This document shows positions 4,292-47,900 of a DNA stretch of 47,900 bases, piece after piece. How positions within the stretch are numbered: the first letter of the stretch is position 1; each line of letters begins with the position of its first letter. Position numbers and translations under genes: made by a program. The DNA comes from Lysinibacillus sp. FJAT-14745 (GTDB lineage Bacteria; Bacillota; Bacilli; Bacillales_A; Planococcaceae), in assembly GCF_001275675.1 (NCBI RefSeq), contig NZ_LITM01000016.1, positions 51,287 through 99,186 of the forward strand. Reading direction: 5' to 3'. A model generated the notes under the pieces. It was not told the origin of the DNA. It did not search any database and saw nothing but the letters and a program-made list of their open reading frames with translations.

Positions 4292-5944
4292 ATGATGTAT
4301 GATGTAGCAATTGTCGGTGCAGGACTGGCAGGATTAGTAGCTGCCTGTGAGTTAGCGGATGCAAAGAAAAAAATTGTTTTAGTAGATCAAGAACCTGAAA
4401 ATTCAATGGGAGGACAGGCATTCTGGTCCTTTGGCGGTATCTTTTTAGTGAATTCACCCGAGCAAAGAAGGCTCGGTATTAAGGATAGTAAAGAGCTTGC
4501 ATGGCAAGATTGGCAAGGAACGGCTGGCTTCGATCGCTTGGAGGATGAAGATTCGTGGGCGTATAAATGGGCCAAGGCTTATGTAGATTTTGCAGCTGGT
4601 GAAAAATATAGATGGTTAAAGTCTATGAGGATTAAGTTTTTTCCAGTCGTCGGTTGGGCAGAGCGTGGGGGATCATTAGCAGGCGGCCACGGTAATTCGG
4701 TACCTAGATTTCATGTTGTTTGGGGAACTGGGCCAGGGATTGTAAAGCCGTTTGCTGAAAAAGTGAAAAAGGCCATAAAGGATGGTTATATAGATTTTAA
4801 ACCAAGACAGCGTGTAGATGAGTTTATTCTACAAGATGGAAGAATAACAGGGATTAGTGGAACAGTTTTGGCTCAAAGCTATGCAAATCGTGGTGAAAAA
4901 AGCTCAAGGCTGGGCATTGGAGAATTTTCTTATGAAGCTGAAGCGGTTATTGTGGCTAGCGGTGGAATAGGTGCAAATTTTGATTTAATCAGAAAAAATT
5001 GGCCAGCGCGACTTGGTTCACCACCTAAAAATATGGTCAGTGGTGTACCTGCTTATGTAGATGGAAGAATGTTAGAAATTACTGAGCATGCGGGAGGACG
5101 TATCGTTAATCGAGACCGCATGTGGCATTATACAGAAGGCTTGAAAAATTGGGACCCTATTTGGCCAAATCACGGCATTCGAATTTTACCAGGCCCTTCG
5201 TCATTATGGTTTGATGCAGAAGGCAATCGATTTGGAGCACCAAATTTTCCTGGTTTTGATACGTTAAGCACATTAGAGGCAATTCAAAAAACAGGTTATG
5301 ATTACTCGTGGTTTATTTTAACTGAAAAAATTATTGAAAAAGAATTTGCATTATCAGGCTCTGAGCAAAATCCTGATTTAACAAATAAAAGTATTAGTGA
5401 TGTTCTAAAACGTGTTTTGCCAGGAGCACCGGGTCCAATTCAGGCATTTAAAAATCATGGTGAGGATTTTGTGATTGCTAATGATTTAAAGGAGTTAGTC
5501 GAAGGAATGAACAAGTTGGCTGGCAATGACCTACTTGATTTTATCAAAATAAAAGAGCAAATTTTAGCAAGGGATCGCGAAATGGACAATAAATTTACAA
5601 AGGACTTACAGGTTAATGCTATTCATGGTGCAAGAAACTATGTTGGTGATAAATTTGTGCGCGTTGCGAAGCCCCATAAAATATTAGATCCCCAAAATTG
5701 GCCACTTATTGCGGTACGCTTAAATATTTTAACGCGTAAAACATTAGGAGGCTTACAGACAAATTTGAATGGTGCTGTGTTAGGAATAGACGGTCAACCT
5801 GTACCGGGTTTATTTGCAGCTGGAGAAGTTAGTGGTTTTGGTGGTGGTGGTGTACACGGTTACCGTGCTTTAGAAGGGACATTTGTTGGTGGGTGTTTAT
5901 TTAGTGGTCGACAGGTAGGGCGTTACTTGGCAAAAAGAGAATGA
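4292..5944 (+). CDS. FAD-dependent dehydrogenase, ketosteroid dehydrogenase / fumarate reductase-like
   Basis: A 550-residue flavoprotein. The N-terminal dinucleotide fold (VAIVGAGLAGLVAACELA) binds FAD, and the C-terminal AAGEVSGFGGGGVHGYRALE closes the FAD site, as in the fumarate reductase / 3-ketosteroid dehydrogenase superfamily. No signal peptide or haem motif is present, so it is expected in the cytoplasm. The start at 4292 is set by GGGGG six bases upstream; a second ATG follows immediately, and an in-frame ATG 20 codons earlier lacks a ribosome site. The substrate cannot be read from the sequence, and steroid chemistry should not be assumed. It is a single gene, convergent with trhO across a 21-bp repeat array. 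Confidence 0.88.
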   Translation: MMYDVAIVGAGLAGLVAACELADAKKKIVLVDQEPENSMGGQAFWSFGGIFLVNSPEQRRLGIKDSKELAWQDWQGTAGFDRLEDEDSWAYKWAKAYVDFAAGEKYRWLKSMRIKFFPVVGWAERGGSLAGGHGNSVPRFHVVWGTGPGIVKPFAEKVKKAIKDGYIDFKPRQRVDEFILQDGRITGISGTVLAQSYANRGEKSSRLGIGEFSYEAEAVIVASGGIGANFDLIRKNWPARLGSPPKNMVSGVPAYVDGRMLEITEHAGGRIVNRDRMWHYTEGLKNWDPIWPNHGIRILPGPSSLWFDAEGNRFGAPNFPGFDTLSTLEAIQKTGYDYSWFILTEKIIEKEFALSGSEQNPDLTNKSISDVLKRVLPGAPGPIQAFKNHGEDFVIANDLKELVEGMNKLAGNDLLDFIKIKEQILARDREMDNKFTKDLQVNAIHGARNYVGDKFVRVAKPHKILDPQNWPLIAVRLNILTRKTLGGLQTNLNGAVLGIDGQPVPGLFAAGEVSGFGGGGVHGYRALEGTFVGGCLFSGRQVGRYLAKRE

Positions 5945-5983
5945 AGAAAAATTTAAGTGAGATTTAGCAAGCTCTAGTGAGAG

Positions 5984-6227
5984 AGGAAACGCTCGGGTCC
6001 CGAGGAAAATCGCTCGGGTAAGCCGAAAAAGTGATCGGGTCCCGAGGAAAATCGCTCGGGTAGGCCGGGAAAGTGATCGGGTCCCGAGGAAAATCGCTCG
6101 GGTAGGCCGGAAAAGTGATCGGGTCCCGCGGAAAATCGCTCGGGTAGGCCTAGAAAGTGATCGGGTCCCCTAGAAAATCGCTCAGGTACCAAAAATATCT
6201 GCTCAGGTAAACGCGCAATCGCTCGCC
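5984..6227. repeat. 21-bp tandem array A (CTCGGGT core)
   Basis: About 11 units with CGGGT recurring every 21 bases (5994, 6015, 6036, 6057 and on), decaying to CAGGT at the right edge. Two unit types alternate, giving a 42-bp higher period: GATCGGGTCCCGAGGAAAAT and CGCTCGGGTAGGCCGGAAAA, each plus a base or so. It fills the gap between the convergent FAD dehydrogenase and trhO. There are no unique spacers, so it is not CRISPR. Confidence 0.92.
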
Positions 6228-6259
6228 CTTTACAGACAAGGAAGAGTAACTCGAAAAAA

Positions 6260-6288
6260 AGAGCATCACCAAAAATGGATGATGCTCT
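6260..6288. terminator. Terminator between array A and trhO
   Basis: AGAGCATC and GATGCTCT form a hairpin with seven A on its left flank, so it is a good terminator for trhO on the minus strand. T-rich sequence on the right may let it also stop plus-strand transcripts. Confidence 0.8.
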
Positions 6289-6294
6289 CTTTTC

Positions 6295-7272
6295 TTATAA
6301 AGAAGGATTTTGAAGTTCAGCGATTTTAGCGATTTGTTCCTCAATCTGCTCTTTTGTCCAACCATTCTCTTCAACAAAGAAGTTGCGTTCTGCGCGGCGG
6401 CATTCGTCTGAACAGCTACGCATATAGAAGGACTCATGCTTTTCCTCGCAAAGCATTAATTTATGGCATTCAGGATTTGCGCAGTTTGTATAACGTTCTG
6501 TCGGTTCACCAGTGAAGAAATCCTTGCCGACAATAACATGCTCAACCTGATTAATCGGTACACTACGGCGTCGATCAAAGACAAACATTTGTCCATCCCA
6601 TAGTTGACCTTTTACCTCAGGGTCTTTAGCATACGTGGCAATTCCACCGTGTAACTGACCAACACTTTCTCCATAGCCTTCACGTTTTAACCAGCCAGAG
6701 AATTTTTCACAGCGAATACCACCTGTGCAGTAAGTCAAAATTTTCTTATCAGCAAAATCTTCTTTATGAGCTTCCATCCAAGCAGGTAGGTCACGGAAGT
6801 TTTCAATATCTGGACGCACGGCACCACGGAAATGTCCAAGGTCATATTCATAATCATTACGTGCATCAATAACTACTGTATTGTCCTCCTGCATACGTTC
6901 CATAAATTCTTTTGGTGATAAATAATCTCCTGTTATTTCTAAAGGATTAATATCATCGTTCAAACCAAGATGTACAATCTCTCGACGAGGGCGCACATGC
7001 ATTTTTTTAAAGGCATGCCCTTCAACTTCATCAATTTTCCACATAATATCGCTAAAACGAGGGTCTGCTTTCATATGTTTCATGTATGCATCAGTTTGCT
7101 CGACTGTACCTGAAACCGTTCCATTAATGCCCTCATATCCAACTAAAATTCGACCAAGAAGTCCGATTTCTTGACAAACTGCTAAATGTTCCTCTGCGAA
7201 TGCTACAGGGTCTTCAATAGCTATATATTTATAATAAAGTAATACACGATAGTCTTGCTGTGTCACAATCAT
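6295..7272 (-). CDS. trhO: tRNA uridine(34) hydroxylase, rhodanese domain
   Basis: A 325-residue UPF0176/YbfQ-type protein. This family hydroxylates uridine 34 of tRNA to 5-hydroxyuridine, the precursor of wobble mo5U in Gram-positives. An N-terminal acylphosphatase-like domain (about 1-95) is followed by a rhodanese domain (about 115-215). The active-site loop is [11 protein letters not shown], with Cys182 as the catalytic residue. The C-terminal part has a cysteine group (CANPEC, later CSDEC) that looks metal-binding. The ATG at 7272 follows AAAAGGTGG. It is transcribed alone. Confidence 0.93.
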
Positions 7273-7405: not shown

Positions 7406-8188
7406 ATGGAATTTTCAACGATTACATTAGAAAAATTAGAACGCCGTGCAACATTAACTTTAAATCGACCACATGCCATGAATGCTATGGACGGTATGAT
7501 GATGCGTGAACTAGCGGAATGCTTTGAGGCACTGCAGCAAGAACAAGACATACAAGTTCTCGTTATTCGTGGGGAAGGAAAAGTCTTTTCAGCAGGTGGC
7601 GATATTAAAGCGATGATGGATCCAGATAAGCCACTTGATATTAATGAGGCAATGGTTTATTTAACACGTATTGTCAAAGCATATTATCAGTTACCGATGA
7701 TCGTCATTGCAGCAGTTCATGGAGCATCAGCTGGATTAGGCTTTAGTCTAGCGCTAGGGGCAGACATAGTTGTGGCATGTGAAAATAGTAAGCTTGCTAT
7801 GAATTTCATAGGCATAGGGCTCATCCCTGATGGTGGCGGTCATTTCTTTATGAAGGAACGTGTGGGTACTGTCAAAGCTAAACAAATGATTTGGGAAGGT
7901 AAAGTATTAACTGCATCGGAAGCACATGATGAAGGGTTAATTGACTACGTTGCACCAGATGGAACTGTTTTTGCAATTACGGACCAACTAGTTGGAAAAA
8001 TGCTTGCTTCTCCAATTGCATCGATGATTACGACTAAAAAAATTCTACATGCTCAAAATTTACCGCAATTAGAGAGTATTTTATCAATGGAAGCAGAGGG
8101 GCAAGCGGCGATGCGTAAAACGGCCGATCATTTAGAGGGAATCCATGCGTTTGTAGAGAAAAGAGCACCTGCCTTTGTAGGAAAATGA
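7406..8188 (+). CDS. yhaR: Enoyl-CoA hydratase/isomerase family protein (YhaR-like)
   Basis: A 260-residue crotonase-fold protein that would act on an acyl-CoA thioester. The oxyanion-hole segments are visible: SAGGDIKAM (about residues 63-71) and HGASAGLGFSLALGADIV (about 109-126). IPDGGGHFFM follows at about 144, where hydratases usually place a catalytic Glu; a Gly-rich Asp/Gly stretch is seen instead. The precise reaction is therefore uncertain. GGGGGTG lies upstream of the ATG at 7406. In B. subtilis yhaR sits close to yhaO, and the same order here supports the name. Confidence 0.85.
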   Translation: MEFSTITLEKLERRATLTLNRPHAMNAMDGMMMRELAECFEALQQEQDIQVLVIRGEGKVFSAGGDIKAMMDPDKPLDINEAMVYLTRIVKAYYQLPMIVIAAVHGASAGLGFSLALGADIVVACENSKLAMNFIGIGLIPDGGGHFFMKERVGTVKAKQMIWEGKVLTASEAHDEGLIDYVAPDGTVFAITDQLVGKMLASPIASMITTKKILHAQNLPQLESILSMEAEGQAAMRKTADHLEGIHAFVEKRAPAFVGK

Positions 8189-8192
8189 AGGA

Positions 8193-8287
8193 ACTCAGTC
8201 TAAGAACGCCACGTCCTGTGGCAACGACTGAGTGACCAACATCATGCCGCTGACGCTACGCTTTCGCGCAAAAAACATCTGTTGGTC
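8193..8287. repeat. Partial copy of the structured GCCACGTCCTGTGGC repeat
   Basis: An outer stem ACTCAGTC/GACTGAGT (8193-8200/8226-8233) encloses the invariant GCCAC-GTCCT-GTGGC hairpin (8208-8222). A second stem GACCAACA/TGTTGGTC (8234-8241/8280-8287) encloses a CGCTACGCTTTCGCGC segment that resembles, inverted, the repeat at 1624-1802. About 55 bp are nearly identical to 8920-8976. The element begins four bases after the yhaR stop codon. Confidence 0.8.
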
Positions 8288-8520: not shown

Positions 8521-8924
8521 ACAAACCCCACCCTTTACTTAAATATATATCTATTATACATAGAAGGTTTATAAACTTCACGGTAAAACTAGCGAATATT
8601 TCGATAAATTATGAAAGTTGTGGAAAATTTAAGGCAATACTATTCATGAACATTCTTTGAATACATTTCTCAACAAGCGTGAAGTATGATAAAATAGAAC
8701 AAATATTCGGTTCTAGCGTGATTCACGAATGTCTCATTAGAGAAATGAGACGAATAGCAGTTAGTAAATTATTGAAGTAGCAATTCTAATGTACTGAATT
8801 AATGACTGCATTACGAGTGATGAAAGAATGACGACAAGGTATAGATTATTGAACTTCTTTCAGCAAATGAATGTGAATTTAAGTTACTTTTCAGTAGGTG
8901 TTCAAACACAGCTGAAAAAGAGGA
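8521..8924. other. Intergenic stretch with hairpins, no gene found
   Basis: No credible coding frame is seen. GTCTCATT/AATGAGAC (about 8733-8753) and CTTTTCAG/CTGAAAAAG (about 8888-8921) form hairpins. A weak promoter-like TTCTCA-N17-TAAAAT occurs near 8667-8695. It could be the distal leader of the yhaONM transcript. Confidence 0.4.
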
Positions 8925-9260
8925 ACTCAGTCTAAGAACGCCACGTCCTGTGGCAACGACTGAGTGACCAACATCATGTTGGCCTAAAGCCTCCGGCGGA
9001 TGTCACGGAATCGGAAAGGAGTTCAATATAGGATGTTAGCCTAAAATCATCGCATCCATGCGATAACGGCAAACTGACCTGCATCGGTAAAAACGCCACG
9101 TCCTGTGGCATTACCGAAATGACCGACATCGTGTTGGCCCTCGGTAAAAACGCCACGTCCTGTGGCATTACCGAAATGACCGACGTCGTGTCGGCCCTCG
9201 GCAGGCCTAAGCACAAAGCCGATTCTGGACGCAATTATGCCGAGGAATAATTGATTATTT
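8925..9260 (+). promoter_or_regulatory. Structured repeat leader upstream of yhaO
   Basis: In order: an ACTCAGTC/GACTGAGT stem around the GCCAC-GTCCT-GTGGC hairpin; a CCAACA-TCA-TGTTGG hairpin (8968-8982); a module starting AAAGCCTCCGGCGGATGTCA (8986-9009); a TCGCAT/ATGCGA hairpin; two tandem units of TCGGTAA...GCCAC-GTCCT-GTGGC...TTACCGA (9084-9117 and 9141-9174), each followed by a CCGAC hairpin; and CAATTAT/ATAATTG ending about 20 bases before the yhaO start. From 8986 onward it matches the element ahead of lcfB. It may be a cis-acting RNA or an inserted repeat. Confidence 0.65.
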
Positions 9261-14550: not shown

Positions 14551-15525
14551 TTATTTCTTTTCAGTATCTTTAGCTTTGTCGTCTTTACTTTCTTTATTAG
14601 CTTTTTCTTCAGCTTTTTTAGCTGCTTCTTCAGCAGCTTTAGCTTGCTCTTCACTTGTTGTTGTAAGGGCCTTGATAGCTGGTTCTAATTCTTTATCAGA
14701 TGTTTTTACATCAGCATCTTTAGCCATTTTTGCAACGATATCTTTAAGAACTTGTTGTTCTTGACCTGTTTGCACTAATTTTTGTAGCATTTGTGAACGG
14801 ATGTTTGCTTCTTCGTCTTTGAATGAGCCAACACCTTTTACATCACGCTTGTCCGTAACTTCAATAACGTGGTAACCAAAGTTTGTTTTAACTGGTTCAC
14901 TTAATGTATTTACAGGAAGGGCATAAGCAGCATCATTAAATTCATCTACCATTGCACCAACAGAGAACCAACCAAGCTCTCCACCTTTTTGAGCAGAGCC
15001 AGTATCAGTTGAGTATTCTTTTGCTACATCTGCAAATTTAGCGCCGCCTTTGATTTTGGCAATAACTTCTTTAGCTGTTTTCTCATCTGCTACTAAAATA
15101 TGACGAGCATTTAACTCTGTTTTCATTTGCTCATAATGTTTTTTTACATCTTTTTCTGTAAATGCTTTATCTTTTAAAGCCTTTTCTGAAAGAAGCTGAA
15201 TACGTAAAGCATCTTTATAGCCTTCCTCAGTCAAGCCGTTCTGAGCAAGTGTTTCGGCAAAGTTAGCACCGAATTGTGAAGCAGTTGCGTCATATGCTTC
15301 TTTGATTTCTTTATCTGATACTTTATATTTGTCCGCTAATACTTTTTCAGTCAACATTTGTTCAAGTATCTTAGAACCTGCTAAAGATTTTGATGTTTTG
15401 TTAAAGTCAGCAACTGTAATGTCGCCCACTTTTGAAGTTGCAATCGTTTTGTTGTCCCCTCCGCTACAAGCACCAAGCGCTAATACCGAAGCAGCTAATG
15501 TTAAAGATAAAACTGTCTTTTTCAT
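14551..15525 (-). CDS. prsA: Foldase lipoprotein PrsA (peptidyl-prolyl isomerase)
   Basis: A 324-residue lipoprotein that folds exported proteins at the outer face of the membrane. The signal peptide ends in the lipobox LGAC (Cys20), to be lipid-modified. A chaperone-like region follows. A parvulin/PPIC domain spans about 135-225 (NARHILVADEKTA, GGELGWFSVGAMV, VKTNFGYHVIEV). The C-terminal tail, from about 280, is a Lys/Glu/Ala-rich segment with low complexity, longer than in B. subtilis PrsA. AAGGAGAG precedes the ATG at 15525. Its location beside yhaM and hpr matches B. subtilis. It is a single-gene transcript. Confidence 0.97.
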   Translation of the reverse strand: MKKTVLSLTLAASVLALGACSGGDNKTIATSKVGDITVADFNKTSKSLAGSKILEQMLTEKVLADKYKVSDKEIKEAYDATASQFGANFAETLAQNGLTEEGYKDALRIQLLSEKALKDKAFTEKDVKKHYEQMKTELNARHILVADEKTAKEVIAKIKGGAKFADVAKEYSTDTGSAQKGGELGWFSVGAMVDEFNDAAYALPVNTLSEPVKTNFGYHVIEVTDKRDVKGVGSFKDEEANIRSQMLQKLVQTGQEQQVLKDIVAKMAKDADVKTSDKELEPAIKALTTTSEEQAKAAEEAAKKAEEKANKESKDDKAKDTEKK

Positions 15526-21380: not shown

Positions 21381-22541
21381 TTATTCAACAAATTGATAGT
21401 CTAGTGCTGCTGTTAATAATACCTTTGCAGCAATGAGCATGCCTTTTTCATCTATATCGAATTTTGGATGATGATGTGGTGCATATTCAGTTGGTTCGGC
21501 TCCAGTAAAGAAGAATGTACCTGGCTTTTCTTCTAAATAGTAAGAGAAATCTTCAGCCCCCATAGTAGCTTCAACCTCAGCAACATCACAAATATCCTGT
21601 GCGATAGTACGCACAAATAATGTTTCCTTCTCATGATTGACAACTGCAGGGTAGCCACGACGATAATCAAGCTCAATTGTACAATCATGTGCAATTTCTG
21701 TACCTTGGATAACCCGTTTAAACTCACGCTCCATCGTTTCACGAACATCCTTATCAAATGTTCGAATCGTGCCATTTAAATAGGCTGTATCGGCAATAAT
21801 ATTGTCAGCATTAGATGCTACGAATGAACCAACCGATAACACAGCCGATTCGATTGGGTCAACACGACGTGCGACAAGTTGTTGTAAATTCATAACGAGC
21901 TGAGAGCCAATAACGATGGCATCCTTTGTTTGATGCGGATGAGCACCATGCCCACCCTGACCTTGGATTTTTATTTCAAAACTATCAACAGCGGCCATCA
22001 TCGGCCCTACGCGGTAGCCAATCATGCCTGTCGGATGGTTGGAAGATAGATGAGTACCAAAAATAGCATCGACGCCATTCAAAGCTCCAGCCTGTACCAT
22101 CCCAATTGCTCCACCTGGATCGACTTCTTCAGCATGCTGATGAATTAGTACATATTGTCCTGCTAATTCATCGCGCATTTCCCACAATAGTTTACCGATA
22201 ATTAACAAAGTAGCTGTATGCCCATCATGCCCGCAAGCATGCATAACGCCAGACACAGTTGATTTGTATGGTACGTCTTTTTCATCTTGTATAGGCAGTG
22301 CATCAAAGTCTGCGCGTAAGGCAATCGTTTTGCCAGGCTTGCTTCCTTTAATGCGGGCAATTAAACCGTAGCCACTGACATTCGCTTCAAGCGGTACGCC
22401 CAGATTTTTATAAAATTGAATAATATAGTTAGCAGTTTCTTGCTCCTGGAAGCTCAGCTCCGGATGCATATGTAGATGACGGCGAATCGCCACCATTTCA
22501 TCATAATGGGCATCAATCTTTTCAAGTAAATGTTGGTTCAA
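21381..22541 (-). CDS. yhaA: M20-family amidohydrolase (YhaA-like)
   Basis: A 386-residue metallopeptidase of the N-acyl-amino-acid amidohydrolase / hippurate hydrolase group. Zinc-ligand motifs are HACGHDGHTA (near 97-106), HQHAEEVDPGG (near 130) and the C-terminal HHHPKFDID. It would release acyl groups from N-acylated amino acids or peptides in the cytoplasm; the substrate is unknown. The start is a TTG at 22541, seven bases after GGAGG; this gives the canonical short N-terminus of the family. Position after ecsB matches yhaA of B. subtilis. Upstream it faces the largest repeat array in the window. Confidence 0.9.
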   Translation of the reverse strand: MNQHLLEKIDAHYDEMVAIRRHLHMHPELSFQEQETANYIIQFYKNLGVPLEANVSGYGLIARIKGSKPGKTIALRADFDALPIQDEKDVPYKSTVSGVMHACGHDGHTATLLIIGKLLWEMRDELAGQYVLIHQHAEEVDPGGAIGMVQAGALNGVDAIFGTHLSSNHPTGMIGYRVGPMMAAVDSFEIKIQGQGGHGAHPHQTKDAIVIGSQLVMNLQQLVARRVDPIESAVLSVGSFVASNADNIIADTAYLNGTIRTFDKDVRETMEREFKRVIQGTEIAHDCTIELDYRRGYPAVVNHEKETLFVRTIAQDICDVAEVEATMGAEDFSYYLEEKPGTFFFTGAEPTEYAPHHHPKFDIDEKGMLIAAKVLLTAALDYQFVE

Positions 22542-22687: not shown

Positions 22688-23668
22688 GATACCTGCGGAA
22701 GGGCAGTAATATCCGCGGAAGAGCAGTGAATACCCGCGAAACCGAGTAGAATACCCGCGGAAGAGCAGCGAATACCCGCGAAACCGAGTAGAATACCCGC
22801 GGAAGAACAGTGAATACTCGCGAAACCGAGGAGAATACCCGCGGAAGGGCGGCGAATACCCGCGAAACCGAGGATATTACCCGCGGAAGAGCAGTAAATA
22901 CCCGCGCCCCCGGAGAATATCCGCGGAAGAGCAGTAAATACCCGCGCCCCCGGAGAATATCCGCGGAAGAGCAGTAAATACCCGCGAAACCGAGTAGAAT
23001 ACCCGCGGAAGAACAGTGAATACCCGCGAAACCGAGTAGAATACCCGCGGAAGGGCAGCGAATACCCGCGAAACCGAGGAGAATACCCGCGGAAGAACAG
23101 CGAATACCCGCGAAACCGAGGAGAATACCCGCGGAAGGGCAGTAAATACCCGCGAAACCGAGTAGAATACCCGCGGAAGAACAGTGAATACCCGCGAAAC
23201 CGAGTAGAATACCCGCGGAAGAGCAGTAAATACCCGCGAAACCGAGTAGAATACCCGGGGAAGAGCAGTAAATACCCGCGAAACTGAGTAGAATACCCGC
23301 GGAAGGGCAGTGAATACCCGCGCCCTCGGAGAATACCCGCGGAAGAACAGCGAATACCCGCGCCCCCGGAGAAATCCGCGGAAGAACAGTGAATACCCGC
23401 GAAACTGAGTAGAATACCCGTGGAAGAACAGCGAATACCCGCGAAACCGAGTAGAATACCCGCGGAAGGGCAGTGAATACCCGCGAAACCGAGTAGAATA
23501 CCCGCGAAACTGAGTAGAATACCCGCGGAAGGGCAGTGAATACCCGCGCCCTCGGAGAATACCCGCGGAAGAACAGCGAGTACCCGCGCCCTCGGAGAAT
23601 ACCCGCGGAAGAACAACAAATACCCGCGCCCCCGGAAGAATACCCGGAAAGCTAGTGAATCCCTGCCC
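22688..23668. repeat. 21-bp tandem array B (AATACCCGCGG core), about 1 kb
   Basis: Roughly 46 units. Two 21-bp unit types mostly alternate: AATACCCGCGGAAGARCAGY and AATACCCGCGAAACCGAGTA, each plus one base. A third, shorter type, AATACCCGCGCCCCCGGAG, is interspersed. CCGCGG palindromes recur every 42 bp. Edges are degenerate (GGATACCTGCGG at left, AATACCCGGAAAGC at right). Because 21 is a multiple of three, open frames run through the whole array, including a 363-codon one on the minus strand, but none has a ribosome site. Confidence 0.95.
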
Positions 23669-23675
23669 ACCCTAA

Positions 23676-24194
23676 CTAAGCTTCGTTTTCTTCTTTTGGA
23701 GCAGCGCTATAGGTTGTAACATAGGAAGCTGCTGAGAACATGTTTTGCTGATTCACACCAGTTGGTTCTTTACGTTCGGCATGTGCTGATGCAAAGGCCT
23801 TTGAGCTCTTCCATGCTTCGAATGAATGAGGACCGTTCCATTGTGTCATGACGATGTATGTTTCACTATTTATTGGACGAAGTAGTCGGAATGCTACGAA
23901 GCCTGGTTCATCTTCAATAGCACGTGCTCGATTTAAAAAGCGATGTTCAAAAACTGGTCGACCTTCATCTGTAACGGGAATATTGTTGAATACAAAGAAG
24001 CCACGTTCTTCTAAATCATTTACTGAATCTAGCACTTCAAATTTACGTGGTGTGGCAAAGACAGATTTTCTTTCGGTTTCATGTATAAGCACAGAGTTTC
24101 CTTCTCCGTGTATTAAAATCATTGCCTCGTTTGGATATTTATTCTTTAGTTGTTCTAAAAAATCACCTGTACCAGAAGTTAAATAAATATACAT
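23676..24194 (-). CDS. hmoB: Haem-degrading monooxygenase HmoB
   Basis: A 172-residue protein matching the HmoB (YhgC) group. An N-terminal extension of about 60 residues precedes an antibiotic-biosynthesis-monooxygenase (ABM) domain (about 65-165), seen in VFNNIPVTDEGRPVFEHRFL, PGFVAFRLLRP and TYIVMTQWNGPHSFEAW. Such enzymes open the haem ring to release iron. It stands divergently from hemE, as yhgC does near the hem genes of B. subtilis; pbpF, present there, is absent. AAGGAGG precedes the ATG at 24194, with a good promoter further upstream. Confidence 0.88.
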   Translation of the reverse strand: MYIYLTSGTGDFLEQLKNKYPNEAMILIHGEGNSVLIHETERKSVFATPRKFEVLDSVNDLEERGFFVFNNIPVTDEGRPVFEHRFLNRARAIEDEPGFVAFRLLRPINSETYIVMTQWNGPHSFEAWKSSKAFASAHAERKEPTGVNQQNMFSAASYVTTYSAAPKEENEA

Positions 24195-32711: not shown

Positions 32712-34901
32712 ATGATTAAAGCTGAGTGGCTGAATATCTTTAAAACAAGAAAAATGCTTGTTTCAATAATCGCTGTATTATTTATCCCAGTCATGTACGC
32801 AGGCATGTTTTTATGGGCGTTCTGGGATCCGTATGCAGGCCTGCCGAATTTACCAGTAGCAGTTGTCAACCAAGATAAGGGCGCTGAAATGGAAGGCGTT
32901 AAATTAGATATAGGGAAAGACTTGGTTAAAAATCTTGTCAAGAGTGAGCAATTTAAATTCGTTGAAGTATCCAAAGAAGAAGCTGAAAAAGGCCTAAATG
33001 GTCGAGAGTATTATATGACTCTAGAAATTCCAACAAATTTCTCTGAGCATGCGACTACGTTATTAGATGAAAAACCTTCTAAATTAGTCATGAATTATAT
33101 TCCTAATGAAGGATTAAACTTCCTGAGTGCACAAATTGGTGATTCAGCAATGGGAAAAATACGTGCGGAAGTGAATAAACAAGTTTCAACTACTTATGCT
33201 GAAAAATTATTTGATTCTATTACAAAACTTGGAAATGGTTTTACAGAGGCTGCTGATGGCTCGAATAAGCTAGATGAAGGTGCTAAGTCTGTAGCAAATG
33301 GAGCAAAAGATTTAAAAGGTTATCTTGCGCAACTAGCATCAAGTACAGTTGAATTGTCAAATGGTACAGATAAAATTACTAAAGGTGCTGGAGCCGCTGC
33401 AAAAGGTGCGAATGACTTATCTACTGGTCTAGTAAAAATACAAGACGGTACTGGACAGCTACACCAAGGTGCACAGCAAGCAGCATCTGGAGCAACATCT
33501 CTTGAGCAAGGTGTATCACAATATACACAGGGTGTATCAAAGGTTCAAGCAGGTTTAGCTACAATTAACGATAAACAACAACAAATTAGTGCAGGTGCAG
33601 CATCAATTGCTGATAATGCAGGTGCATTAAATGGTGCAGCCGGCCAACTAACAGCGGGTTCTGCAAAAGTAGAAGCAGGTATCACTGCTTTATCTAATCA
33701 ATTACAAGGCATGATGGCTTCATTGCCAGAAGAACAAGCTGCAGTATTAAAACAAACATTAGCAGAGCTACAAGCAGGAAGTGCAAGTGTGCATAATGGC
33801 TTAGGTTCTTTAACTGCTGGTACAGAAAAATTACAAGCTGGTGCTAAACAAGTAAGTTCTGGTGCATCACAAATTGCAGCAGGTCAATCACAAGTGTTAG
33901 CAGGTGCTAATGAGTTAACATCAAAAAGTGGTGCGTTAGTCCAAGGAGCAAAAGGTCTTCAAGCTGGTAACGCAACACTTGCTCAAAAATTAGGTGAATT
34001 AAATACTGGTGTTAAGACAGCCGTAACAGGTTCTAAAACATTGGCTTCAGGTTTAAATGAGCTAGCAAGTGGTTCAACAACATTAAATAAAGGTACATCA
34101 ACGCTTGCATCTAAATCAGGTGAATTAGCAGCAGGTTCTGCAACGCTTGCTGATGGTACAACTAAACTAGTAGATGGTACATCAACTTTATCTAGTAAAC
34201 TAGGTGAAGCTAGTGAAACAGCAAAAGGAGTTCATGCAGGTAAAGACACATATGATATGGTAGGTAGCCCGGTTGAGGTTGAGAAAGAATCTGTTAACCA
34301 TGTACCTAACTATGGAACAGGTTTCTCACCATACTTTATCTCTTTAGGCTTATTCGTTGGTGCTTTAATGATCTCTATCGTTTTCCCATTTGTGGAACCA
34401 GCGATTCGTCCAAAAAATGGGGCAGCTTGGTTTACAAGTAAAATCTCAGTTTTAGCAATAGTCGGCTTAATTCAAACTATATTAACAGTGATTATTGTAA
34501 AATGGGGCTTAGGCCTTGAAGTATACAGTTTAGGATACTTCTTCCTAACAGCATTATTAACAAGCTATGTTTTCTTAGCTTTAATTCAAATGTTAGTATC
34601 TATTTTCGGTGATCCAGGACGCTTCCTTGCGATAATTGTATTAATTTTACAACTTACAACAAGTGCGGGTACATTCCCACTTGAGTTAATCCCAACACCA
34701 TTACAATGGTTTAATAAAGGATTACCAATGACATATACTGTTTCAGCATTTAAAGCAAGTATCTCAACTGGTGATACATCATTCTTAATGCAAAACTACG
34801 GAATTCTAGCAGGCTTCCTAGTAGCATTCTTAGCTATTACTTTCGGTTATTTCATGTTACTACACACAAAACGTTACTCAAAAGTAGCCGAAGAAAACTA
34901 A
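32712..34901 (+). CDS. yhgE: YhgE/Pip membrane protein
   Basis: 729 residues. One N-terminal membrane helix (about 14-36) is followed by a large outside region. From about 170 to 510 it consists of heptad-like repeats with Gly and Leu/Ala in register (for example KITKGAGAAAKGANDLSTGL), typical of the YhgE/Pip/EsaA group and likely a long coiled coil. Five or six membrane helices of the ABC-2 type close the protein (from about 540). Relatives include the Lactococcus phage infection protein and EsaA of type VII secretion; the transported substrate is unknown. The ATG at 32712 has TAGGAGTG upstream. Probably controlled by YhgD through the inverted repeat just upstream. Confidence 0.9.
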   Translation: MIKAEWLNIFKTRKMLVSIIAVLFIPVMYAGMFLWAFWDPYAGLPNLPVAVVNQDKGAEMEGVKLDIGKDLVKNLVKSEQFKFVEVSKEEAEKGLNGREYYMTLEIPTNFSEHATTLLDEKPSKLVMNYIPNEGLNFLSAQIGDSAMGKIRAEVNKQVSTTYAEKLFDSITKLGNGFTEAADGSNKLDEGAKSVANGAKDLKGYLAQLASSTVELSNGTDKITKGAGAAAKGANDLSTGLVKIQDGTGQLHQGAQQAASGATSLEQGVSQYTQGVSKVQAGLATINDKQQQISAGAASIADNAGALNGAAGQLTAGSAKVEAGITALSNQLQGMMASLPEEQAAVLKQTLAELQAGSASVHNGLGSLTAGTEKLQAGAKQVSSGASQIAAGQSQVLAGANELTSKSGALVQGAKGLQAGNATLAQKLGELNTGVKTAVTGSKTLASGLNELASGSTTLNKGTSTLASKSGELAAGSATLADGTTKLVDGTSTLSSKLGEASETAKGVHAGKDTYDMVGSPVEVEKESVNHVPNYGTGFSPYFISLGLFVGALMISIVFPFVEPAIRPKNGAAWFTSKISVLAIVGLIQTILTVIIVKWGLGLEVYSLGYFFLTALLTSYVFLALIQMLVSIFGDPGRFLAIIVLILQLTTSAGTFPLELIPTPLQWFNKGLPMTYTVSAFKASISTGDTSFLMQNYGILAGFLVAFLAITFGYFMLLHTKRYSKVAEEN

Positions 34902-34918
34902 AAATAGGAATTTTTACG

Positions 34919-34943
34919 CCCACCAATATTGGTGGGTGTTTTT
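34919..34943 (+). terminator. yhgE terminator
   Basis: CCCACCAAT and ATTGGTGGG form a tight palindromic hairpin followed by TGTTTTTT. Confidence 0.8.
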
Positions 34944-34956
34944 TGTGGTTAAATGA

Positions 34957-35036
34957 GAACTGCTCGGGTATCCCCAAAAACTGCTCGGGTATCCCCGAAA
35001 ACTGATCAGGTGCCAGGAATAACTGCTCGCCTCCAA
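34957..35036. repeat. 21-bp tandem array C (short)
   Basis: About four units of ACTGCTCGGGTATCCCCAAA plus one base, the last two degenerate (CTGATCAGGTGCC, CTGCTCGCC). The opposite strand reads GGATACCCGAGCAG, giving the TACCCG core shared with the other arrays. It lies between yhgE and the convergent yhfH. Confidence 0.85.
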
Positions 35037-35070
35037 AAAAAATCGCCACTTACAAAAAAACATACAAAAA

Positions 35071-35104
35071 AACAGCAGCCGATATGAGCGTATCAGCTGC
35101 TGTT
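35071..35104 (-). terminator. yhfH-side terminator
   Basis: AACAGCAGC and GCTGCTGTT form a 9-bp stem; on the minus strand it is followed by eight T. Confidence 0.75.
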
Positions 35105-35154
35105 TTGTAAGTGTAAGAGATTTAATTAATGGTTCATCAAAATATGATGAGGGG

Positions 35155-35210: not shown

Positions 35211-35336
35211 TTATAGGTGGTTACATTTTTCACAAGTGTTGCTGTAGCATTCACTTTGTTCTTCAATTTTTTCACCGCATTCTGTGCATTGCTTTGCAGG
35301 TAGGTTCTTGAAAAATTCAACTACATTTTCTAACAT
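35211..35336 (-). CDS. yhfH: YhfH-family small zinc-ribbon-like protein
   Basis: 41 residues: MLENVVEFFKNLPAKQCTEC followed by a Glu-rich stretch and CEKC. Two CxxC-type pairs (CTEC and CEKC) plus one more Cys suggest a zinc knuckle. Length and pattern match the YhfH family of Bacillus, whose function is unknown. The ATG at 35336 has AGGAGGAG eight bases upstream; a longer frame to 35420 ignores this site. It is next to lplJ, as in B. subtilis. Confidence 0.85.
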   Translation of the reverse strand: MLENVVEFFKNLPAKQCTECGEKIEEQSECYSNTCEKCNHL

Positions 35337-38338: not shown

Positions 38339-38773
38339 ATGACAGAAGTACGCTTGGATGAATGGGTTTTACATGTAGAGACAAAAAAAACAGAGGCATT
38401 ATACGAGTCGCATAACGATGTTTGTGATTGTTTATCTTGCAAAAATTTTCGTACAGCAAGTCTTTTGCTGAATGAAGAAGTAATGCATTTTTCGAATAAG
38501 CTTGGGCTAGACTTACATAAACCGACTTCACTTAATGCTTTTCCTGTAGAAGGTGAACAGGTGATGTACAGTGGGCATTATACGATTTGTGGAGAAGTAA
38601 TTGAAGGTGAAATGGATGCCTGGGATGTAATTATTGGGTCGCATTGCTTTAGTCTAGTGGAGGAGGATGGTAATCAGTCAGCTGAATCATTAACAGAGCC
38701 GCATTTTCAAATTGGCTTTGAGGTAGTATTGCAGTGGCTTTTGCCAGAATCCATGGAATTAATCAAGAAATAA
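38339..38773 (+). CDS. Unknown protein within the Bce-type operon
   Basis: 144 residues, soluble, acidic, no signal peptide or membrane segment. It has a CDCLSC motif near residue 29, a further Cys in YTICGEV, and one in GSHCFSL, so it could bind a metal or form disulphides. I do not recognise the family. GGGGGATT gives a good start at 38339. It lies 11 bases after the kinase and 12 before the ATPase gene, so it belongs to the operon. Typical bceRS-bceAB clusters lack a gene at this position. A role in signalling or transporter tuning is only inferred. Confidence 0.75.
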   Translation: MTEVRLDEWVLHVETKKTEALYESHNDVCDCLSCKNFRTASLLLNEEVMHFSNKLGLDLHKPTSLNAFPVEGEQVMYSGHYTICGEVIEGEMDAWDVIIGSHCFSLVEEDGNQSAESLTEPHFQIGFEVVLQWLLPESMELIKK

Positions 38774-41689: not shown

Positions 41690-41906
41690 GCCTCCGGCGG
41701 ATGTCACGGATTTTAAAAGGAATGCACAAAGGATGTTAGCCTAAAACCTTCGCATCCTGCGAAAACGGCTAACTGACCTGCATCGGTAAAAGCGCCACGT
41801 CCTGTGGCATTACCGAAATGACCGACATCGTGTCGGCCCTCGTGCAGGCCTGGACACAATTCAAAATCCGGACTTCAATTACGCCAAGGCGAAATTGATA
41901 CGATAA
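41687..41906 (+). promoter_or_regulatory. Structured repeat leader upstream of lcfB
   Basis: It opens with AAAGCCTCCGGCGGATGTCA, then GTTAGCC/GGCTAAC around a TTCGCA/TGCGAA hairpin, TCGGTAA...GCCAC-GTCCT-GTGGC...TTACCGA (41783-41815), CCGACA-TCG-TGTCGG (about 41821-41837), and TCAATT...GCC-AA-GGC...AATTGA ending about 20 bases before the lcfB start. Order, orientation and distance to the start match the element ahead of yhaO, with one GCCAC unit instead of two. Confidence 0.65.
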
Positions 41907-45917: not shown

Positions 45918-46794
45918 CAATATCACTTCCTTTTTTACTTGTTAAATACTTGCAGACTTCACTTGCGTTAAGGGATGATACCGTAATGCCTTTTGCTCGA
46001 AGTATTTCTTCTGAGACGAATAGTTTACTAGCATCTATTATTGCTGAGGTCATTCCTGCCATAATCTTTTGAGCGTATACTTCCGTCTCAGAGAGCAGAT
46101 CTGCAAGTGCATCACTTGGTCCGCTAAGTGATATGAGCTGTTCCTTAAATTCATCTAATGGCGCGTGGGCAATGACAGAGCCTTCATCCATCAATAATAT
46201 TTCTTCTAAAATAGATTCCATCTCTTGCAAATGGTGACTAGTAATTAAAAACGTTCGTGGAAAGGCTAGGTATTCCTTTAAAATCGCCCTGTAAAAATCT
46301 GTACGAATCACTTCGTCCATGCCATTCATCGGTTCGTCTAAAATCGTTAGTGCACAGCGGCTTACTAATCCGTAAACAAGGTTAAAGGTTGCCAATTGCC
46401 CCTTAGATAGTTGCTGATGCTTTGCTGTGAGATCTATCCCTGCATAATCGAGCATGCGATAAGCTAATTCATTTTGCCAATTAGGATAAAAATCGGCCCC
46501 CATCTTTAGAATATCTTCGAGCGATAAGTAATCAGAGAAACTTAATCGATCATCGATAAAAATCATATTGGCAGCAGTTTGAATATTATTAAAGGGATTT
46601 TCATTAAACACTTTGCATGACCCAGTTGTAGGCTTTATATAGCCTGCAAAAATATTAAGTAATGTCGACTTACCAGCACCATTGCGACCAATAATACCGA
46701 TAATTTTCTCTGCATCAATAGCGCAAGTTACGCGCTGTAGTGCATGACGACGTCCAAAGCTTTTAGATAACTCCTCACATTGAATAATATTCAT
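45901..46794 (-). CDS. ABC transporter ATPase (YtrB-like)
   Basis: 297 residues. Walker A (GRNGAGKST) is near 36; the signature region LSKGQLATFNLVYGL, near 130, departs from the LSGGQ consensus, as in YtrB-like ATPases; Walker B is LTILDEPMNGMDE near 150; the H-loop is LITSHHLQEM. A C-terminal extension of about 80 residues follows the core domain. AGGAGGG precedes the ATG at 46794, which overlaps the GntR stop (ATGA). GntR-ABC operons of this layout respond to cell-wall stress in B. subtilis (ytrABCDEF); the same role here is inferred. Confidence 0.9.
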   Translation of the reverse strand: MNIIQCEELSKSFGRRHALQRVTCAIDAEKIIGIIGRNGAGKSTLLNIFAGYIKPTTGSCKVFNENPFNNIQTAANMIFIDDRLSFSDYLSLEDILKMGADFYPNWQNELAYRMLDYAGIDLTAKHQQLSKGQLATFNLVYGLVSRCALTILDEPMNGMDEVIRTDFYRAILKEYLAFPRTFLITSHHLQEMESILEEILLMDEGSVIAHAPLDEFKEQLISLSGPSDALADLLSETEVYAQKIMAGMTSAIIDASKLFVSEEILRAKGITVSSLNASEVCKYLTSKKGSDIDAIFD

Positions 46795-47165
46795 GCCAAT
46801 CCCTCCTGTGTTTTTCGAATAAGCACTAGCAATTCTTCATCAGATACAAGTAAACGTTTTGCCTCTAATACGATTTCTTGTGCCATTTTCGTCAATATTT
46901 CGTTTCGACGTTTCATTAAAATTCGTTCCTTTGCATCCGTAGCGACAAACATACCTAACCCCCGTTTTTTATATAAAAGTTGCTCTTCAAGTAAAATTGT
47001 CAGCCCTTTACCAGCTGTAGCAGGATTTATATTGAATAATTCAGCTAGTTGATACTGTGAATAGACCTTCTCGTCAGCCTGTAATCGATCGGCAATGATT
47101 TCGTGCTGTAGCCATTCAGCAATTTGAATATAAATCGGTGTTGTACCATCTAGATGAACGTGCAT
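46791..47165 (-). CDS. GntR-family repressor (YtrA-like)
   Basis: 124 residues: an N-terminal winged helix (about 8-75; PIYIQIAEWLQHEIIADRL, YSQYQLAELFNINPATAGKG) and a short helical C-terminus for dimer formation, the YtrA subfamily layout. AAGGGGGG before the ATG at 47165 fixes the start. The frame extends upstream to 47726, but that part runs through the 21-bp array and is not coding. It is the first gene of the operon and probably represses it. Confidence 0.92.
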   Translation of the reverse strand: MHVHLDGTTPIYIQIAEWLQHEIIADRLQADEKVYSQYQLAELFNINPATAGKGLTILLEEQLLYKKRGLGMFVATDAKERILMKRRNEILTKMAQEIVLEAKRLLVSDEELLVLIRKTQEGLA

Positions 47166-47276: not shown

Positions 47277-47900
47277 TACCCTCGGAAGCAGGACGAATAC
47301 CCGCGGAAGCAGAGGAAATACCCGCGGAAGCAGGACGAATACCCGCGGAAGCAAGGTAAATGCCCGCGAAGCAAAGCAATACCCGCGGAAGCAGGACGAA
47401 TACCCGCGAAAGCAAGGCGAATACCCGCGGAAGCAAGGTAAATACCCGCGAAGCAAAGCAATACCCGCGGAAGCAGAGGAAATATCCGCGGAAACAGGAC
47501 GAATACCCGCGGAAGCAGAGGAAATACCCGCGGAAGCAGAGGAAATACCCGCGGAAGCAAGGCGAATACCCGCGAAGCAAAGCAATACCCGCGGAAGCAG
47601 GAGGAATACCCGCGGAAGCAGAGGAAATACCCGCGAAAGCAAGGCGAATACCCGCGGAAGCAAGGCGAATACCCGCGGAAGCAAGGCGAATACCCGCGGA
47701 AGCAGGACAAATACCCGCGGAAGCAAGGCAAATACCCGCGGAAGCAGAGGAAATACCCGCGGAGGCAGGACGAATACCCGCGAAGCAAAGCAATACCCGC
47801 GGAAGCAGGACGAATACCCGCGGAAGCAGAGGAAATACCCGCGAAAGCAGAGGAAATACCCGCGAAAGCAGAGGAAATACCCGCGAAAGCAGAGGAAATA
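47277..47900. repeat. 21-bp tandem array D, continues past the window
   Basis: About 30 units of AATACCCGCGGAAGC followed by six variable bases (AGAGGA, AGGACG or AAGGCG). A 19-bp short form, AATACCCGCGAAGCAAAGC, appears five times. The last three units are nearly identical, which suggests recent local duplication. It lies upstream of the GntR gene and runs to the window edge. Three long frames on the minus strand arise only because the unit is a multiple of three. Confidence 0.95.

Follow-up and report, generated by a model that had tools for sequence, protein, structure and literature searches.

Intergenic core-spacer repeat arrays with a dominant 21-bp unit and a replication-linked orientation in Lysinibacillus

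The four arrays and their neighbouring genes

The window, i.e. the whole stretch of DNA that was analysed, comprises 47,900 nucleotides (G000:C8:51287-99186, where G000 is the window's genome, other G numbers are the genomes of relatives, and L numbers are loci). Four arrays with a dominant 21-bp unit were found in it. The arrays, with the family letters explained below, and their flanking features are as follows.

4292-5944, plus strand: FAD-binding oxidoreductase gene, 3' end towards array 1
5983-6188, minus strand: array 1, family B; a 42-bp dimer with TACCCGAGC and GACCCGATC cores in alternation; lag-21 cluster at 5978-6170
6255-6293, no strand: inverted repeat with A/T tracts, between array 1 and the rhodanese-domain gene
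6295-7272, minus strand: UPF0176/rhodanese-domain gene, 3' end towards array 1
21381-22541, minus strand: M20 peptidase gene, downstream of array 2
22689-23646, plus strand: array 2, family A; core AATACCCGCG; 21-bp spacer types, two in alternation; 19-bp units also present
23676-24194, minus strand: ABM-domain gene, 3' end towards array 2
32712-34901, plus strand: ABC-2 membrane protein gene, 3' end towards array 3, followed by a terminator-like hairpin at 34916-34939
34958-35011, minus strand: array 3, family B; short, about 2.6 units, with TACCCGAGCAGTTTT on the minus strand; lag-21 cluster at 34933-35036
35211-35333, minus strand: YhfH gene, convergent with the gene at 32712-34901; terminator-like hairpin at 35069-35106
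46791-47165, minus strand: gene left of array 4, with a weak GntR match below the Pfam cut-off; the array lies upstream of it
47277-47900, plus strand: array 4, family A; core AATACCCGCG; units of 21 and 19 bp; extends past the window

Degenerate units extend array 1 to about 6220, and the last cores of array 4 lie near G000:C8:99,570, outside the window, as does its right-hand neighbour, a HDOD/EAL gene on the plus strand. Arrays 1 and 3 are located between convergent genes, which agrees with the original count of two such arrays; array 2 lies between tandem and array 4 between divergent genes. The inverted repeat at 6255-6293, which is missing from the computed terminator list, is probably a two-way terminator. 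In a scan of the regions around arrays 1 and 3, all inverted repeats of at least 10 nt were outside the arrays.

The window contains 76 TACCCG hexamers, with 54 pairs exactly 21 bp apart. In 100 first-order simulations of the window, the mean was 8.5 hexamers and no 21-bp pair occurred, so the four predicted arrays with a 21-bp unit do exist. Arrays 1 and 3 carry TACCCG on the minus strand, and arrays 2 and 4 carry it on the plus strand. The further claim that TACCCG is read once per unit was only partly borne out, since in array 1 it occurs every 42 bp, with GACCCG in between, and array 3 has only about 2.6 units. Long overlapping ORFs run through the arrays on both strands because 21 is divisible by 3; they were judged spurious, as the 19-bp units break the frame and the spacers drift. 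A 21-bp period was also seen at 14592-14653, within a predicted gene on the minus strand (14551-15525); it probably reflects a coded heptad repeat, without relation to the intergenic arrays.

Some separate repeats were recorded in the same genome. Five matches to Bacillaceae-1 RNA above the Rfam threshold are located in the window at 8184-8250, 8916-8982, 9025-9091, 9139-9194 and 41725-41790. Four of these lie within 1 kb, and the last two of the four overlap a 57-bp tandem repeat at 9084-9201. The C21 contig of G000 carries two-copy 78-bp tandem duplications with 98% match at 1114-1271, 34463-34618 and 34988-35143, all within 35 kb, which are possibly recent duplications or assembly effects.

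Period, core families and structure of the unit

The pattern TACCCGNG-N13-TACCCGNG had 269 matches in the whole genome, and the reversed control had none. Core-to-core gaps of up to 100 bp (n=578) were collected on strands with at least four cores in the window and in L031-L097, with L044, L058, L067, L082 and L092 excluded. The gap was 21 bp in 429 cases, 19 bp in 37, and 20 bp and 18 bp in 7 each. Of the array strands with two or more short gaps, all 53 had 21-bp gaps and 20 had 19-bp units. Furthermore, non-coding self-similarity was scanned blind to the core at lags of 12 to 45 in 800 kb of one G000 contig. Lag 21 gave 17 clusters in the first 400 kb and 9 in the second, lag 42 gave 13 and 7, and each other lag gave 0-5 in either half; some of the lag clusters are AT-rich and look like chance. 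The 21-bp period is thus dominant, although "exact", as it was first described, is too strong in view of the 19-, 20- and 18-bp gaps.

Several cores share this period. The family letters A-E and H are labels coined in this analysis.

Family A: core AATACCCGCG; window arrays 2 and 4
Family B: core ACC(C/T)GA(G/T)C, i.e. ACCYGAKC; window arrays 1 and 3
Family C: core CTATCCGTCG/TTTCCGTCG
Family D: core TTATCAGCGA
Family E: core ATTTATCAACCAACTTT
Family H: core TTTTCCGCCG

TACCCG covers only families A and B, which carry it on opposite strands relative to replication. The proposed TACCCG core therefore holds as a conserved core of a genome-wide family, but other 21-bp arrays carry CTATCCGTCG, TTATCAGCGA, ATTTATCAACCAACTTT or TTTTCCGCCG. 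Arrays without TACCCG or with an unrelated period had been named beforehand as evidence against the proposal, and both were found to some extent, as 21-bp arrays lacking this core and as a family with a 36/37-bp unit. The latter is intergenic, has the unit GTGCGAAAGCG(A/T)AGCGnCAGCAACAAATGTTTTA, is tandem in places, and occurs at 1687-1780 in the window and at 38359, 166561, 168657, 315194 and 380763 on G000 C21. Its unit was on the leading strand at 9 of 29 loci (4 of 10 among loci with at least two copies), so the polarity described below for the 21-bp arrays is absent from it.

The unit itself is composed of a core of about 10 bp and a drifting spacer of about 11 bp. In 60 family A chains with 318 inner units, adjacent units mismatched at 2-9% of core columns and at 24-57% of spacer columns. 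Because the core had served for detection, the test was redone on 22 arrays identified from self-similarity alone. A contiguous 10-column block of low mismatch was significant overall (combined p 6e-10) and individually in 10 of the 22 arrays; window arrays 2 and 4 were among these ten, and arrays 1 and 3 among the other 12. The same core is present at many unlinked loci and in several species. The spacers are partly homologous across species, and a GAAG-type spacer recurs, so core and spacer differ in degree. No isolated AATACCCGCG was found in 800 kb, where about 0.5 was expected, and the other cores had 2-6 isolated copies in 800 kb, close to permuted controls, and the core as a single regulatory site was rejected on these counts.

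The original prediction also placed every core on the same face of the DNA, 21 bp being two helical turns, and a phased protein-binding platform would follow from this. The unit length common to several different cores agrees with such a platform, as do the 21-bp gaps on all 53 strands. On the other hand, phase coherence at 10.5 bp was low in the window's long arrays because of the 19-bp units (R 0.21 for array 2 and 0.30 for array 4). The median coherence was 0.54 in 33 Lysinibacillus arrays with at least eight cores, with 21 of the 33 below 0.7. In three Siminovitchia arrays with the same core, the period is mostly 20 bp (33/41, 8/9 and 9/14 gaps) and coherence was 0.10-0.41. Adjacent cores are usually in phase, and entire arrays are out of phase. 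The one-face claim failed on these values, and a phased platform spanning whole arrays, very improbable in our judgement, is already largely refuted by the loss of coherence and by the 19-bp units on 20 of the 53 strands.

Location, spread and orientation of the arrays

Array locations were counted in gaps of at least 80 bp, classed by codon-usage gene calls made for this analysis. Contig-end arrays (22 of 77) and window array 4, whose gap is cut by the window edge, were excluded. The array's own strand served as the leading strand (plus in the window), a choice that affects the split into co-directed and opposed gaps but not the convergent and divergent classes. Array gaps were 18 convergent, 18 co-directed, 12 opposed and 2 divergent, against 31, 79, 44 and 55 in the background. 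The predicted location bias was confirmed in that convergent gaps were enriched (odds ratio 3.2, p 0.0012) and divergent gaps depleted (odds ratio 0.12, p 0.0002). Window array 4 is divergent, and the avoidance is therefore not absolute.

The enrichment in convergent gaps would suit a transcription buffer, a terminator or an RNA-level element at gene 3' ends. Moreover, on the TACCCGAG strand some units of family B look like small terminators, and array 3 sits between two terminator-like hairpins. However, co-directed and opposed gaps were used in proportion to the background, both strands of families D and E show hardly any folding, there was no Rfam match at the arrays, and array 4 lies in a divergent gap, so that such an element seems quite improbable. 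In single-strand folding, 10 of 12 arrays were about equal on both strands, and better folding of the leading-strand sequence was seen in array 1 and one family H array. A hairpin-driven orientation was rejected on account of this inconsistent strand difference.

When one genome per species was scanned, 67 stretches were obtained, namely 62 from Lysinibacillus, three from Siminovitchia thermophila, one from Bacillus massilionigeriensis and one from Thalassotalea; the last lies inside a predicted gene and is probably a chance match. Pairs of AATACCCGCG were present in 15 of 32 genomes of the genus, with counts from 0 to 216, and absent from 17. G001 has no family A pairs and contains family B and one family C-like array. 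In a class sample of 398 genomes, AATACCCGCG pairs occurred in three, the window's genome included, all within the genus, and TTATTCGCGAA pairs occurred in none of 250 genomes of the wider class. Twenty other genomes, sampled at up to 20 kb each and with one sample too short to use, gave two lag-21 clusters, of which one is AT-rich and probably due to chance. Outside Lysinibacillus, 21-bp arrays with further cores (TTATTCGCGAAA/AATACTCGCGAAA and TTCGGTCGCTAA) were noticed in L058 at 5592-5811 (Bacillus massilionigeriensis) and in L223 (another genus of the family). A phage origin was dismissed after zero pattern matches in viral_contigs for two core families, and a plasmid origin after zero megablast matches of array 2 among plasmids with the low-complexity filter on.

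The orthologous loci of arrays 1 and 2 were compared, 30 for each array. In the gap beside array 1, a family B array was detected by self-similarity in G000, G018, G007, G005, G001 and G006, and a few cores were left, by eye, in G003, G023, G045 and G011; the G016 locus is incomplete and could not be read. The core is kept in these orthologs and the spacers vary by species. In the gap beside array 2, an array was detected by self-similarity in G000, G018, G003, G047 and G007, and by eye in G045 and, degenerate, in G023; the other 23 loci had no lag-21 cluster within 1,500 bp. Array 2 spacer types can still be recognised in different species, which means that spacers drift and yet are not wholly free. 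Arrays thus persist at orthologous gene ends with drifted spacers. Within array 2, the core is altered in concert to TATCCGCG in G003 and to TACTCGCG in G047, and such concerted variants are a sign of homogenisation. A slipped-strand repeat family, another of the original suggestions, fits in part: changes of array length by slippage agree with the higher-order repeats, but slippage alone leaves the fixed core unexplained.

Comparison with replication direction, proposed as a check in the original prediction, yielded the main result of this work, the polarity of the arrays. It was determined in complete relatives with a located dnaA, with replication arms assigned by the midpoint rule and in part checked by GC skew. 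In tallies that pool orthologous arrays, so that their p-values come out too small and overstate the number of independent events, the AATACCCGCG strand of family A was the leading strand in 55 of 60 arrays from six complete relatives (G002 9/9, G015 13/14, G007 12/13, G019 6/7, G020 7/8, G022 8/9). The arrays of G015 and G007 were found with a four-unit pattern, the G015 count being from 100 of 104 places; a G015 array at 240 kb on the plus strand, outside the tally, fits the rule. The ACCYGAKC strand of family B was the lagging strand in 35 of 37 arrays by the midpoint rule (G001 17/17, G015 5/5, and G005 13/15 among the matches listed, of 101 places in all; the 294 places of G007 were excluded). 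In G005 the GC skew switches at 3.32-3.45 Mb, past the midpoint, so the misfit at 2,960 kb fits and that at 3,370 kb is unassignable, which brings family B to 36 of 36 assignable arrays. Family C followed the rule in 13 of 16 arrays, among the matches listed (in G015 the first 100 of 195 places, in G007 about 50 of 343). Relative to dnaA, the orientation is near-complete on both chromosome arms. This polarity is a hint that the arrays are produced, restricted or exploited by replication.

The exceptions occur in part at apparently the same loci, namely G015 359 kb with G007 372 kb, G015 443 kb with G007 433 kb, and G020 2,729 kb with G022 1,885 kb, the last of which was confirmed by local skew as a true exception. 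The remaining ones are G019 3,454 kb and G015 2,046 kb. One odd family A array with similar spacers, AATTGGAGACA included, was observed at G000:C2:43875 (L001), G015:C1:359 kb and G007:C2:372 kb; it breaks the rule in both complete genomes, and its G000 copy is upstream of a predicted gene encoded on the opposite strand. Judged from one to three spacers per array, the purine fraction of family A spacers was at most 0.58 in all five exceptions and at least 0.64 in all 55 followers. It follows that orientation tracks strand composition more than the core itself.

According to GC skew, the leading strand of G000 is the plus strand in the window and the minus strand in the C21 contig. In an unbiased sample (84 stretches with clear skew, 3 of 87 being set aside for weak skew), 22 of 24 arrays were purine-rich on the leading strand, with a median of 0.66; the misfits were window array 3 at 0.5 and L259, which runs against the rule. 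Two wrong-way arrays on C21 lie outside the 24, at 399,898 (family C-like) and 743,425 (family B), and the stretch of the latter is probably one of the three set aside. Ordinary gaps lean likewise (636 of 815 purine-rich on the leading strand, median 0.53), and part of the array polarity is therefore background. A leading-strand purine fraction of at least 0.57 was reached by 20 of 24 arrays vs 111 of 815 ordinary gaps. Since array gaps were 18 co-directed and 12 opposed vs 79 and 44 in the background, orientation tracks replication and not gene direction.

Such polarity could mean that the oriented cores are chromosome signals, read by a DNA translocase, a Chi-responsive nuclease or a polar fork-stop protein as the directional machine, and that orientation is itself the function. 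The near-complete orientation on both arms and its independence of gene direction agree with this reading. We nevertheless regard it as unlikely, because TACCCG is common to families A and B and yet is found on opposite strands relative to replication, and because orientation follows spacer purine content and not the core. Furthermore, 17 of 32 genomes of the genus have no family A pairs and the families vary among relatives, unlike one universal signal. The five family A exceptions also suggest that purine-neutral arrays whose cores are intact take either direction at random, contrary to this reading.

Origin of the arrays and comparison with known systems

We tentatively hypothesize that the arrays are intergenic core-spacer satellites, made by replication-driven tandem duplication, with a core that is kept by a DNA-binding factor. 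Tandem duplication in the course of replication would lengthen and shorten the arrays, which would survive or expand mainly when their purine-rich strand is the lagging-strand template. The core would be kept through recognition by a sequence-specific DNA-binding factor, which may be useful to the cell or part of the duplication process; strict helical phasing would not be required. Gene ends would be tolerated as array sites, and gaps with promoters only mostly would not. The link between polarity and purine content suggests the replication fork as the agent deciding which orientation survives, and we infer both this cause of the strand rule and the binding factor.

Neutral satellites, ranked close behind, are a possible alternative. 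Slippage and unequal exchange would make and homogenise the arrays, the core would be a microhomology for mispairing, and the orientation would arise because pyrimidine-rich sequence is generally avoided on the leading strand, with no factor and no function involved. The dimers and higher-order repeats, the concerted core variants in G003 and G047, and the variable presence of arrays among relatives are all consistent with this, as are the purine lean of ordinary gaps and the purine-poor exceptions to the polarity. However, mutation alone is not expected to leave ten columns fixed while adjacent spacers differ by up to 57%, and it does not explain the same core at unlinked loci. Folding, about equal on both strands in 10 of 12 arrays, also shows no consistent strand asymmetry that could drive slippage. 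A recognised core is favoured because slippage alone accounts for copy-number change, dimers and homogenisation, but not for ten fixed vs eleven drifting columns, and because the same ten columns recur at many unlinked loci. Beyond the replication-driven duplication with a recognised core that we prefer, the arrays could, with rather low probability, form a dispersed replication-polar element system. In this case several core dialects per genus, each with its own DNA-binding protein, would mark the leading direction at the ends of genes and influence forks or head-on transcription, and the arrays would be copied forward by replication itself.

With hundreds of copies, several parallel core types and a strong polarity, the function of such repeats becomes testable, the alternatives being that fork direction decides which tandem repeats the chromosome keeps or that a protein reads oriented cores. 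PMC3532100 assigns no function to intergenic repeats of the STAR type, in which the core is conserved and the spacers drift. The polarity of the arrays also bears on a puzzle concerning Firmicute genomes, in which the weak A-richness of leading-strand intergenic DNA "remains a mystery" despite mutation towards T (PMC3174206; S. aureus and B. anthracis). No published description of these arrays or of replication-oriented intergenic tandem repeats was found in a search to which subscription journals were mostly closed.

Chi, KOPS and SRS are scattered short single motifs with known readers that are oriented to replication on both chromosome arms. The arrays share the orientation tied to replication direction (55/60, and 36/36 assignable, with exceptions); they differ in being dense intergenic arrays with several cores and a reader that is only presumed. 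Enterobacterial REP/BIME elements are also intergenic, occur at gene 3' ends and avoid promoters, but REPs are palindromes, and the units found here are arranged as direct repeats. A CRISPR array was rejected, as unique spacers would be expected and the same few spacers recur within an array. Intrastrand triplex motifs in E. coli and others are likewise repeated intergenic motifs, tied to genome instability, and differ in having zero strand-orientation bias in E. coli MG1655 and in forming a folded triplex, not a direct-repeat array (PMC4666352). The TAACTGA repeats of Beggiatoaceae and other bacteria are abundant short intergenic direct repeats as well, with a patchy distribution by species, a function given as unknown and up to 43 copies per array in some species. 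They are, however, heptamers found mostly just upstream of start codons (PMC4679880), whereas the 21-bp core-spacer units are found mostly at gene 3' ends.

Staphylococcal STAR elements have a short GC-rich direct-repeat core in the intergenic DNA of a low-GC Firmicute, spacers that differ by locus, a copy number that varies within a locus, and a number of copies per genome unrelated to species relatedness; their function is described as unknown (PMC3532100). At S. aureus STAR loci a start signature sequence precedes the repeats, and the terms "orientation" and "leading strand" are absent from the main text of PMC3532100. The STAR core is 14 bp long (TDTGTTGKGGCCCM), with spacers of 40-44 bp and few copies (PMC3532100), whereas the arrays here have cores of about 10 bp and several types, spacers of about 11 bp and up to dozens of units. 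With up to two mismatches, TDTGTTGKGGCCCM had 2 matches in the window vs 1.94 expected, none of them in the arrays, and spacing of 40-44 bp is at variance with the 21-bp gaps that make up 429 of the 578. The trait in common is a conserved core with locus-specific spacers in intergenic direct repeats. By core sequence or spacer length the arrays are not STARs, and, judged from the sequence features compared here, STAR elements are their closest known kind.
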